Positions 4,572 through 13,335 of a stretch of 64,000 nt of DNA are shown in pieces. The notes below the pieces were generated by a model. It did not search any database and was not told where the DNA came from. It saw only the letters and a list, made by a program, of their open reading frames with translations. This DNA is from Batillaria attramentaria (taxonomy: Eukaryota; Mollusca; Gastropoda; Batillariidae), in contig JACVVK020000035.1 in NCBI GenBank assembly GCA_018292915.2, forward strand, positions 541,001-605,000, read 5' to 3'. The stretch's first letter is position 1. The number at the start of each line of letters is the position of its first letter. The position numbers and the translations under genes were made by a program.

Positions 4572-4673
4572 CTTTTCTTGTGATATCATGCTGGCGTCTG
4601 AGCGTGATATGCTGTCCACCTCTGAGTTTGATTTCCTGTTCATATCCGCTTCTGAGTGCTTTACGCCGTACCT
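4572..4673 (-). CDS. Cassette exon 1 of unknown repeat-exon gene
   Basis: Product unknown. This is the copy furthest downstream on the minus strand. The acceptor is TTTGTTTATTAAAG and the exon opens with RYGVKHSEA, as in all other copies. It is only 102 nt (34 codons) and phase 0 at both ends. The second half differs: there is no KIEFE block, and it ends ...MISQEK followed by GTAAAC instead of GTAAGT. Serine/acidic content persists (NSEVDS, SRSDAS). Either it is the last, divergent member of the array or its 3' half was replaced. No stop codon or polyadenylation site was identified downstream, so the gene's end is not located. Confidence 0.6.
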
Positions 4674-4724
4674 CTTTAATAAACAAAAGCAGTTAGTCTT
4701 TGGAATCCCCCCCCCCCCTCTCTC

Positions 4725-4783
4725 CTTGCCGCGAAATAGTCTTTGTAGCTTGCGTGGCGTAAAGCCCTAACTAACTAACTAAC
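4725..4783 (+). mobile_element. Short retroposon 3' end with (CTAA)n tail
   Basis: Reads GCTTGCGTGGCGTAAAGCCC then CTAACTAACTAAC. The same 3' end is present at 27954-28018, 33411-33470 and 59879-59925, each time with a 4-bp tail repeat. Confidence 0.65.
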
Positions 4784-4852
4784 GGTAACCCCCGTCTCTC
4801 CTCCTTCTCCTCTTTCTCGCACCCCCCTCCCCCCCCCCCCCCACCTCGACAC

Positions 4853-4975
4853 GTGAGTTCGAATCCCGACTGGCGCTAAATATTTGTGCTGGCCTTTTTC
4901 TCGTTGCCCCGTCTTTGATATCACCCATACCTGGTGGAAAAGAACGTTAAACTCCTAAATACCCACCCACATATC
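4853..4975 (+). mobile_element. SINE-2 fragment
   Basis: Starts inside the B box (GAGTTCGAATCCC) and keeps the ATATTTGTGCTGGCC body and the ACCCACCCAC tail. The A-box half is missing, replaced upstream by a C-rich run. Confidence 0.75.
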
Positions 4976-5106
4976 CCCCCCCCCTCCCTTATCCCCGACA
5001 ACTGTCAGCGTTCTCAAATAATAGTCATTTCACTTCATTTCATTTCTCTCTCATGTATTAATGACTTCAGTACATTAATTTGACCTGTTCTGGAGGGATG
5101 GGTCTC

Positions 5107-5180
5107 GTGTGTGTGTGTGTGTGTGTGTGTGTGTGTGTGTGTGTGTGTGTGTGTGTGTGTGTGTGTGTGTGTGTGTGTGT
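5107..5180. repeat. (GT)n tract next to donor of cassette exon 2
   Basis: Read on the minus strand this is a (CA)n run starting about 15 nt after the GTAAGT donor of the exon at 5196-5369. The same arrangement is duplicated at 5902-5971. Confidence 0.95.
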
Positions 5181-5195
5181 TTTCCATCAACTTAC

Positions 5196-5369
5196 AGCGG
5201 TTTCGCGTCCATCACTATCGGCCCTTTCATTAGCGTTTTCATTATCAACCTCGAACTCGATTTTTCCGATAACTGGGGGCTCCTCTGAGCGTGATTTGCT
5301 GTTTTCTTCTGAGTGTGACCTGCTCTTCTCGTTCTCCGTACTCGCCTCAGAGTGTTTTGCGCCGTACCT
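5196..5369 (-). CDS. Cassette exon 2 of unknown repeat-exon gene
   Basis: 174 nt, 58 codons, phase 0 on both sides. The intron end reads GACTAACTGCTTTTG then TTTATTGAAG: a branch-point-like CTAAC about 20 nt before the AG with a pyrimidine-rich stretch. The exon encodes RYGAKHSEAS, then short KSRSHSEE and KSRSEE units, then PPVIGKIEFEVDNENANE and DSDGRETA, followed by GTAAGT. Rich in K, S, E and H, with no hydrophobic core, so it is probably disordered. It lies in a 792-bp tandem duplication with exon 3 and differs from exon 3 by one residue (R or H in the last SxSEE). Confidence 0.78.
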
Positions 5370-5439
5370 CTTCAATAAACAAAAGCAGTTAGTCTCAAAA
5401 CTAGAGAGGCAGAATCCTACTTGTCTCACTTGTGAACTG

Positions 5440-5900
5440 GTTTAAGATCATTCAAAAGGTTGGTAAAGGTAATATCACTGTCTATCATCATGCCTGTTAG
5501 ATGTCTCTGGTGTTCGTAGTTTCTGACAAATGGCAATTGTACAGATTTTCATTCTTTCAAAGGGGCATGTCCAGAAAGGTCTTATTGCTAAGTTCTTATT
5601 ATTAAGTTTAGTGCCCTTGCTGGTTGTTGTTTCTGAGAAAATGCCCAAGGTAAGTTGGTTTTTTTTTGTCTTTCCCACAAACAGCTTCATGGTCTGGACC
5701 TTGACGCAAGGTCATTGAATACGGGTGTATCAGTGAAGGACTATCATTATGGAAAGCTTGTATCGCCTTGACCTTGAGTAAAGGTCATTCAAACAATACC
5801 TTTAGTCAAGATCATATCAATGTCTATCAGTGTGCCAAGTTTGATGCCTCTGGTATTTGTAGTTTCTGCGAAAATGACCATGACCTTTAGCCGAAGCCAT
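5440..5900 (-). repeat. AGGTCA-type 150-bp repeat family, minus orientation
   Basis: Intronic. Contains TTTCTGAGAAAATGCC, GTGCCAAGTTTGATGCC and TGACCTTGA with TAAAGGTCA, the reversed form of the family at 20129-21790. Part of the 792-bp duplicated segment. Confidence 0.7.
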
Positions 5901-5901
5901 G

Positions 5902-5971
5902 TGTGTGTGTGTGTGTGTGTGTGTGTGTGTGTGTGTGTGTGTGTGTGTGTGTGTGTGTGTGTGTGTGTGTG
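5902..5971. repeat. (GT)n tract next to donor of cassette exon 3
   Basis: Second copy of the tract at 5107-5180. It lies about 15 nt beyond the minus-strand donor of the exon at 5988-6161. Confidence 0.95.
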
Positions 5972-5987
5972 CTTTCCATCAACTTAC

Positions 5988-11267: not shown

Positions 11268-11480
11268 AACGGTTTGACGTCCATCACTGACTGCCGATTC
11301 ATCAGCCGTTTTATGATCGATGTCGAATTCGATTTTTCTGGTACCAGAGGAATCTTTTGAGTGTGATTTGCTGTTCGCTTCTGCGTGTGACTTGCTCTTC
11401 TTCTTCGTCTTACTCACTTCTGAGTGTGACTTGCTCTTCTTATTCACCCTGCTCACTTCCGAGTGTTTTCCGCCGTGCCT
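11268..11480 (-). CDS. Cassette exon 9 of unknown repeat-exon gene
   Basis: 213 nt, 71 codons, phase 0 to 0, exactly 39 nt longer than exons 2, 3 and 12. RHGGKHSEVSRVNKKSK, SHSEVSKTKKKSK, SHAEANSKSHSKDSSG, TRKIEFDIDHKTADE and DGRQTV, then GTAAGT. It belongs to the subfamily with a KTADE/NANE insert, like exons 2, 3, 12 and 13. Internal GTGAGT and GTGAGC matches occur at 11412-11417 and 11451-11456. Confidence 0.78.
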
Positions 11481-11559
11481 CTTCAATAAACAAAAGCGGT
11501 TAGTCTGTATAAGTTACATATTTAAATTTGTTTTAATACTTTAGACGCCTTTCCCATTT

Positions 11560-11745
11560 TATTTTTGGAAAGCGCCGAGAACTGAACCCAGCACGCACGC
11601 TCACGTGAATCACACACATTCTCTCACACACTGGACATGAACACATTACACTCACGTGGCCAGCTCAGCTATTTAAGTTTCGGAATTTTATGACTGCATT
11701 TACTTTGGAATTTTATGGGCCGAACATTTCCAAACCTTCACCTAC
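11560..11745 (-). mobile_element. SINE-1 fragment
   Basis: Contains AAAGCGCCGAGAACTGAACCC, split by family drift, CACGCTCACGTGAATCACAC and GGACATGAACACATTACA. The tRNA-like head is missing. Confidence 0.75.
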
Positions 11746-11882
11746 ATAATACATTACACAATGACCACATGTATACCCACATCAACACCCGCTCATCAAA
11801 CACACTAAACGGGTGTCCATATGCGAACATAACATGTTTTCGATAAATGGATCTTTTATTCGTGTAGTTTCCGTTTACTTAC

Positions 11883-11900
11883 AACGGTTTGACGCCCAAC
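11883..11900 (-). pseudogene. Truncated cassette exon 10
   Basis: Only the last 18 nt of an exon before an intact GTAAGT donor, matching the end of exon 13 (GGGCGTCAAACCGTT type). Upstream of this the sequence switches to an A-run and (CT)n. Exon body and acceptor are lost. Confidence 0.6.
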
Positions 11901-12058
11901 CTTAAAAAAAATACCCCCCCCCCTCCTCTCTCTCTCGTGTGTATACCTACTTCAACACCCGCTCACCAAACACACTGAACGGTTTCCATATGCGAACATG
12001 ACCTGTTTTGGAGGAATAGATCTCGTGTCTTGTTATCGTGTGATTTCCGTTTACTTAC

Positions 12059-12262
12059 AGCTGTTTCGTGTCCATCACTGGCTGCCGGTTCATCATGATC
12101 AATCTCGAATTCAATTTTTTTGGTACCAGAGGAATCTTCTGAGTGTGATTTGTTGTTCGCTTCTGAGTGTGACTTGGTCTTCTTGTTCGTCTTACTCTCT
12201 TCTGAGTGTAACTTGCTCTTCTTATTCACCTTATTCGCGTCTGGGTGCCTTCCGCCGTACCT
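12059..12262 (-). CDS. Cassette exon 11 of unknown repeat-exon gene
   Basis: 204 nt, 68 codons, phase 0 to 0. RYGGRHPDANKVNKKSK, LHSEESKTNKKTK, SHSEANNKSHSEDSSG, TKKIEFEIDHDE and DGHETA, then GTAAGT. It has the best acceptor of the set (TTTGTTTATTACAG). The alternation CAG/AAG just before the exon in different copies fixes the exon start at AGG and hence phase 0. A short direct repeat of the acceptor region (TCTGTAATAAACAAAAG) follows on the plus strand. Confidence 0.78.
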
Positions 12263-12620
12263 CTGTAATAAACAAAAGTCTGTAATAAACAAAAGTCTAT
12301 AATCCTTATTTTTTTAATCTCTCTCTCTCTCTCTCAAGTAGCGACAAGTCTGAAACTTGGTCTACAGATTAACAACTCTTACGGTTCTCAAATAAAAGTC
12401 ATTTCACTTCATTTATTTCATTTCATTTCTCTGTCGTGAACTACACTCCAGTACATTAACATTAACTTCACATACATAATACAGTACACAATGCACACAT
12501 GTATACCTACTTCAACACCCATTCATCAAACACACTGAAAAGGTTCCCATATGCGAACATAAGCTGGTTTGGAGAAATGGATCTGGTGTCATGTGTTTTT
12601 TGTGATTTCCGTTTACTTAC

Positions 12621-12794
12621 AACGGTTTCACGTCCATCACCGTATGCCGTTTCATCAGCCGTTTTATGATCGATCTCGAATTCGATTTTTCTGGTACCCG
12701 AGGAATCTCCTGAACGTGATTTGCTGTTCGCTTCTGAGTGTGACTTGCTCTTCTTATTCGCCTTACTTACTTCTGAGTGCTTTCCGCCGTGCCT
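12621..12794 (-). CDS. Cassette exon 12 of unknown repeat-exon gene
   Basis: 174 nt, 58 codons, phase 0 to 0. RHGGKHSEVSKANKKSK, SHSEANSKSRSGDSSG, TRKIEFEIDHKTADE and GDGRETV, then GTAAGT. Here the E-V-S-K codons read GAA|GTAAGT (12765-12770), a perfect internal consensus donor in phase 0. Use of that site would leave a nine-codon exon. Confidence 0.78.
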
Positions 12795-12838
12795 CTTTAA
12801 TAAACAAAATTAGTCGGTCATTTGAAAAAAAAAAACTC

Positions 12839-12970
12839 TCTCTCTTTCTCTCTCTCTCTCTCTCTCTCTCTCTCTCTCTCTCTCTCACACACACACACAC
12901 ACACACACACACACACACACACACACACACACACACACACACACACACACACACACACACACACACACAC
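12839..12970. repeat. (CT)n-(CA)n compound microsatellite
   Basis: About 48 bp of CT followed by 84 bp of CA. It lies just upstream (minus strand) of cassette exon 12. Confidence 0.96.
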
Positions 12971-13238
12971 CGGCAACTCTGTAAATTGTCTGCAGACCAA
13001 CAAATGAAGCTCTTTTCTTTTCATTTCATTTCATTTTTCTCTCGTGTACTGGACATAAATACATGAACTTCACATACATAGTACTTTACACAATGCACAC
13101 AATGTATACTCAACACCCGCTCATCAAACACACTGAAAGGGTTACCATGTGGGATCATCATCATCATCATCATCATCATCATAATGAAGAGGAGAATGGA
13201 TCTCGTGTCTTGTTTTGGTGTGATTTTTTCTTACTTAC

Positions 13239-13335
13239 AACGGTTTGGCGCCCACCACTGTCCATTCTTTCATCATGGCTTTCATCGTCAATCTCGAATT
13301 CGATTTTTTTCTTATTCGAGGAATCGTTTTGGTCC
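13239..13335 (-). pseudogene. Cassette exon 13, 5' part lost
   Basis: The 3' part is intact: NVDQNDSSNKKKIEFEIDDE, then SHDERMDSGGRQTV, then GTAAGT. The opening GGKHSE modules and the acceptor are absent because a LINE 3' end lies directly upstream from about 13336. The left breakpoint of the LINE is approximate. Most diverged copy in sequence and the first in transcription order. Confidence 0.6.

Follow-up and report, generated by a model that had tools for sequence, protein, structure and literature searches.

The DNA considered here is a window of 64,000 nucleotides from the intertidal snail Batillaria attramentaria (C35:541001-605000), and all coordinates without a contig prefix are window positions. 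On its minus strand, from 18241 to 1965, a gene of 17 exons can be modelled that encodes 968 residues, with one stop and with phases that match throughout. The model runs from a signal peptide through exons D1, CT and D2 and a linking exon into an array of eleven repeat exons (R1-R11), and ends in a transmembrane exon (Table 1). The published assembly is described as 715 Mb in 863 contigs (PMC10382545); the genome searched here comprises 715,342,989 bases in 863 contigs.

The exon array

The repeat exons are named in minus-strand order, from 12794 to 4572. A first-pass annotation of the window had proposed eleven complete exons here, and all eleven were recovered where it had placed them. Every one is a multiple of three nucleotides, in phase 0 at both ends, free of stops and preceded by AG. 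R1-R10 carry the donor GTAAGT, and GTAAAC follows R11, the last exon in minus-strand order and exon 1 of that annotation. The total of 695 residues was also reproduced, as was the reading of the array as duplicated, frame-neutral exons for a low-complexity peptide rich in Lys, Ser, His and Glu. R1-R10 start with R[YH]G, and most of them continue with KHSEA or something close to it. This start is followed by basic units of 13 residues (SKANKKSKSHSEA and variants), then by a stretch near NNKSHSEDSSG, and then by the KIEFEID block, which is acidic. R9 and R10 are the most divergent among R1-R10, and R11 retains the repeat start.

Table 1. Exons of the modelled gene and a repeat-exon remnant, in minus-strand order.
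Feature	Position	Strand	Length (nucleotides)	Residues	Description
Exon 1	18164..18241	-			Start codon and signal peptide MKVVVNALLMLLLWSLSSVAS... (by hydropathy); phase 0 out; weak donor GTATGA
Exon D1	17661..17857	-			First half of the eight-cysteine domain; phase 0 to 2
Exon CT	16728..16855	-			Second half of the eight-cysteine domain (DLRS..VCNCSLLELI..C..C); phase 2 to 1
Exon D2	14360..14494	-			Basic site NRRRS and linker; phase 1 to 1; weak acceptor
Linking exon	13239..13360	-			Phase 1 to 0; 3' half homologous to the repeat exons
Repeat exon R1	12621..12794	-	174	58	
Repeat exon R2	12059..12262	-	204	68	
Repeat-exon remnant (VGRQTV)	11883..11900	-	18		Donor and homologous downstream intron
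Repeat exon R3	11268..11480	-	213	71	
Repeat exon R4	9494..9736	-	243	81	
Repeat exon R5	9021..9185	-	165	55	
Repeat exon R6	8572..8838	-	267	89	
Repeat exon R7	8079..8243	-	165	55	
Repeat exon R8	7363..7566	-	204	68	
Repeat exon R9	5988..6161	-	174	58	Recent duplicate of R10
Repeat exon R10	5196..5369	-	174	58	
Repeat exon R11	4572..4673	-	102	34	Without KIEFEID block; donor GTAAAC
Candidate terminal exon	1965..2126	-			Acidic stretch, transmembrane helix, four-residue tail and stop; phase 0 in

Self-comparison aligns R1-R2, R4-R5 and R6-R7 across their introns as two-exon blocks, and R9 and R10 are 96% alike including their flanks. These alignments show that the copies originated both singly and in two-exon blocks. 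Within four of the repeat exons, Tandem Repeats Finder also detected 39-nucleotide units. The first-pass annotation had counted two broken copies in addition to the eleven, and this holds for one of them, the 18-nucleotide remnant between R2 and R3. The other, the linking exon, is open, and its 3' half and its intron are homologous to those of the repeat exons; it is probably a working exon that joins the array to the upstream exons. A further copy, at C35:540859-540760, lies 141 bp outside the start of the window and 2.1 kb beyond the last exon of the gene. It is decayed, being frameshifted and cut short, retains about 80-90 nucleotides of upstream intron and is nearest to R9 and R10 among the repeats.

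A 304-bp tandem repeat rich in TGACCTTGA and TCAAGGTCA words occupies 20127-21291. By eye, stretches resembling it occur in the array introns at about 9.8-10.5, 6.3-7.0 and 5.4-5.9 kb, and two of the three match each other in self-comparison. These intron stretches may have helped unequal exchange.

Selection on the repeat exons

Selection clearly holds the frames of the repeat exons open. In 5000 neutral simulations on the tree of R1-R10 (55 shared codons, with the consensus as ancestor; R11 and the linking exon left out), a mean of 3.6 of the ten copies stayed open, and all ten did so in 0.46% of the runs. Every one of the 75 pairwise exon gaps is a multiple of three, versus 5 of the 28 gaps in the flanking introns, a contrast to be read with the non-independence of the exon pairs, the single-base length of 22 of the 28 intron gaps and the poor alignment of the R8 intron.

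Constraint on the residues themselves is weak, since the pooled ratio of nonsynonymous to synonymous divergence (dN/dS) over the 66 pairs formed by 12 copies (R1-R11 and the linking exon) is about 0.66 (dN 0.224, dS 0.340) and exceeds 1 in 15 pairs. R7/R8 reaches 2.5, and seven of the 15 pairs involve R11; among R1-R10 alone, 6 of 45 pairs lie above 1. With the R8 intron left out, intron divergence in ten pairs (0.07-0.25) is near dS (0.10-0.37), and it is greater than dN (0.06-0.17) in nine of them.

Could the array be a non-coding relic of duplications in a decaying locus? The pairs with dN/dS above 1 would fit such decay, as would the two remnants, one at 11.9 kb and one beyond the window, and the frameshift in exon D1 of a paralog at 528 kb. 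However, all eleven exons are stop-free with indels in threes, against the neutral expectation given above, and frame loss struck the copy outside the gene but spared those inside it. We therefore regard a relic as very unlikely.

Splicing of the array

As every copy is in phase 0 at both ends, its gain, loss or skipping leaves the downstream anchor in frame. The acceptors of the repeat exons are mediocre, with A at -3 in ten of eleven, and in a simple matrix the donors fall within the top 4.4% of GTs on the strand or better. It is possible that the repeat exons are included or skipped independently, as combinatorial cassettes with up to 2048 in-frame subsets and many stalk lengths. The frame-neutrality of all eleven exons agrees with this, as do the mediocre acceptors and the variation among copies in length (34-89 residues) and in the charge of their first part (-2 to +13). 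However, frame-neutrality is inherited from a phase-0 founder exon, because copying such an exon confers it automatically. The donors are good, and in the ten well-aligned pairs the intron flanks diverge approximately like synonymous sites, so that no conserved control element is visible. Independent choice of exons is unlikely, and slightly more so is its fuller version, in which combinatorial inclusion of the eleven exons sets both the length and the charge pattern of the stalk of a surface protein.

Alternatively, splicing might be mutually exclusive, with one repeat exon per mRNA as in a Dscam-type cluster. As far as PMC9013439 describes such clusters, the array resembles them in its tandem homologous exons and good donors and differs in that several exons can be joined in frame into a linear repeat product. 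Since the exons are multiples of three, the inclusion of several of them goes unpunished, and their products are tandem repeats, not alternatives of one folded domain. The array introns (at least 182 nucleotides) are not very short. A further difference from the clusters of PMC9013439 is that a docking site was not found in a limited test for exact 10-nucleotide complements: of the seven donor-side introns tried (those after R3, R7, R9, R10 and R11 were left out), at most two are complemented by any one pre-mRNA segment, and the reversed control gave at most one. Mutual exclusion is the most improbable of the explanations weighed here.

The 25 longest of 326 inverted repeat pairs comprise simple repeats plus a single pair that is about 190 nucleotides long. 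The two arms of that pair, at 10870-11056 (intron after R3) and 13826-14014 (intron before the linking exon), are 85-87% complementary. If they anneal in the pre-mRNA, the linking exon and R1-R3 would be looped out and the frame would be broken. Nothing was found in the sequence that forces the choice of a single exon or stands in the way of skipping. On the simplest interpretation, the mRNA would include most or all repeat exons.

The predicted stalk

Over its 695 residues the array is 39% charged, with a net charge per residue of 0.01, and it contains 50 His, 12 Pro and neither Cys nor Trp. Each of R1-R8 has a basic first part (+4 to +13) and an acidic KIEFEID part (-3 to -8); R9-R11 start roughly neutral. 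A single-sequence AlphaFold model of R4 reached a mean predicted local distance difference test (pLDDT) score of 68 and a predicted template modelling (pTM) score of 0.15, and it has no helix of four or strand of three residues. A Pfam scan with two joined repeat exons returned only PCNP (expectation value, E, of 7) and DUF4647 (E 9.1). The composition and the model fit a flexible, disordered and charge-balanced stalk.

The head domain and its family

A search with the upstream frame revealed relatives of D1 at four other places in the genome, and a later search added a sixth, more distant family locus on C430 at 303-307 kb. D1 and CT exons with conserved cysteines stand in order in all six loci, the D1 at 528 kb being frameshifted, and eight cysteines are invariant across four aligned members. 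Between the own gene and its paralogs, dN/dS in this head is 0.15, 0.18 and 0.40, at a dS of 1.0-2.5 that is near saturation. The first-pass annotation had recognized no known family, which stands for the repeat; the gene itself is one of at least six loci sharing the N-terminal domain by which its family is defined. The protein collection gave a single annotated member, the partial NCBI protein of the C265 paralog (P0001, BaRGS_00027512, Batillaria attramentaria), which uses the identical D1-CT junction.

The signal-peptide exon has weak matches upstream of paralogs at C35:529696 (E 0.02) and C35:449563 (E 0.40), and a match by eye at C35:424480. At five of the six loci, including the own one, hydropathy points to a candidate hydrophobic stretch at the C-terminus, preceded by a charged linker. 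In several members the head is followed by a basic site: RTKRS in the C265 and 448-kb members, RKRRRRG at 528 kb and NRRRS in the own gene. The furin motif is R-X-[KR]-R, which the own site does not satisfy. The C430 member has its own His- and charge-rich linker ahead of the transmembrane candidate. The 528-kb paralog (C35:528.8 kb) combines the D1 frameshift with an open CT and a transmembrane candidate; this could mark a pseudogene or reflect an error in the assembly.

No match to the Pfam leucine-rich repeat (LRR) models was obtained for four family members at E up to 10, in a scan whose HMMER filters discard most matches above E of about 0.1. The sole hits of a PDB profile search with the head, Slit2 (E 1.2) and Toll (E 7.4), are both non-significant. 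An AlphaFold model of BaRGS_00027512 (pTM 0.32) has pLDDT of 62-81 in the D1 half and 37-45 in the CT half, and fold searches returned no significant match. The head might be a minimal LRR cap, an idea to which neither the Pfam nor the fold searches lend support.

Is the array shared by this family? Fourteen candidates were scored in a genome search with a repeat exon, and all 12 matches lay inside the array, covering R1-R10. A 33-nucleotide pattern, allowed up to three mismatches over the whole genome, hit four array exons and nothing else. The own gene gives 107 self-matches between D2 and the anchor, versus 0, 0, 1, 0 and 0 at the other five loci, where the stretch compared ran from CT to the anchor at the 423-kb locus and covered 8.1 kb, without a located anchor, at the 448-kb locus. 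No array was seen in these examined stretches. Within the reach of the searches made, the array appears private to this gene.

Membrane anchoring or secretion

We consider it likely that the gene encodes a surface or membrane protein, one member of a small family, in which a disordered stalk has been lengthened by tandem exon duplication. The product would carry a cleaved signal peptide, a small eight-cysteine head, a short basic site, the long stalk and a single C-terminal membrane anchor; secretion, anchoring, disorder and stalk function are inferred properties. A phase-0 exon for part of the stalk would have been copied repeatedly, singly and in pairs, up to eleven copies, and the 39-nucleotide repeats within exons would have lengthened the stalk further. 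Its length could then drift or be tuned while head and anchor remained fixed.

If R11 is instead the terminal exon, the protein would be secreted rather than anchored: it would end in QEKVNKFSLTLQ, and the frame at 2126-1965 would be due to chance. The R11 donor differs from the other ten, reading through it leads to a stop nine codons on with an AATAAA at 4212, and the NCBI model of the C265 paralog is partial and has no transmembrane exon. However, anchor-like frames (phase 0, at least 35 codons, a fair acceptor and an end within five residues of a strong hydrophobic stretch) are rare, following 2 of 399 acceptors on the strand of the gene and 4 of 414 on the other, where two of the four are CA-repeat frames. 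Transmembrane candidates also occur at four paralog loci. A secreted form is on balance unlikely.

Several observations weigh against the stalked membrane protein that we favor, beginning with the stop and AATAAA just described; the next such hexamer after the transmembrane exon is an ATTAAA at 345. The exon 1 donor and the D2 acceptor are weak, and the latter was selected to fit the phase. The transmembrane exons of the paralogs were picked out among the reading frames by visual inspection, and the 448-kb locus yielded none. Besides lacking a transmembrane exon, the BaRGS_00027512 model has an extra stretch between CT and D2. Constraint on the array is far weaker than that on the head. The genome search with a repeat exon missed R11, the linking exon and the nearby decayed copy, the last of which was picked up by local comparison, so that weak copies may exist elsewhere. 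Finally, the own gene was not found in the protein collection among proteins of 176-560 and 532-1694 residues, the second of these searches scoring the 7999 candidates with most words in common. It therefore seems unannotated in the modelled form, which fits, without proving, a locus missed by annotation.

Other features of the window

Just upstream of D2, at 14670 on the minus strand, lies a signal-peptide-like start (MPKEREKKIRVFFVVLLASILLLFWCARG) in another frame and across a GT repeat; it is a possible alternative first exon. Between the gene and its upstream neighbor, a plus-strand region at 22921-29202 holds a 961-residue frame and a reverse-transcriptase-like frame (28009-29202). By eye it is apparently a retroelement of the type without long terminal repeats. 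On the minus strand, 29712-30426 has a good-looking acceptor followed by about 238 codons, a very basic C-terminus (KRRRRKKKKRR) and a stop, and is likely the terminal exon of a neighboring gene. An open frame of 219 residues on the plus strand (47152-47808) has a protein-coding look, and may resemble FEN1/asteroid-like proteins of invertebrates.

Comparison with known systems

Membrane proteins of the GPIb-beta/GPIX type are small and have an LRRNT-LRR-LRRCT architecture. The gene described here shares with them a putative signal peptide and a small cysteine-rich head (with LLILDLRS..VCNCSLLEL), together with a predicted single membrane pass and short tail. It differs in that its head has no Pfam LRR match at E 10.

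The PEVK region of titin is intracellular. It is described as having 74-109 detected exons, rich in Pro, Glu, Val and Lys (PMC6469411). The snail array resembles it, as portrayed there, in being a long run of small duplicated exons that encode a charged, disordered repeat, with tandem duplication altering the exon number (PMC6469411). The present array differs in having 11 Ser/Lys/Glu/His exons with 12 Pro in 695 residues, in a predicted membrane protein. In kind it resembles the PEVK exons in its mechanism, a comparison that does not extend to kinship.

The locus offers a compact, recent and dissectable case of tandem exon array growth. An array gene stands here beside five family loci that appear to lack the array, its copies span a gradation of ages, and a decayed one lies immediately outside it. 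A family of predicted membrane proteins rich in cysteine comes to light as well.

Bacterial Periscope proteins, as presented in PMC8201768, likewise project a head on a stalk whose length is set by repeat number. They differ in being bacterial, in having folded repeat domains and in varying their length at the gene level, not by exons (PMC8201768). Should the repeat exons after all be combined by splicing, one snail gene would present an unchanged head at many different distances from the membrane, as an exon-built, splice-tuned counterpart of such variable-length stalk proteins.

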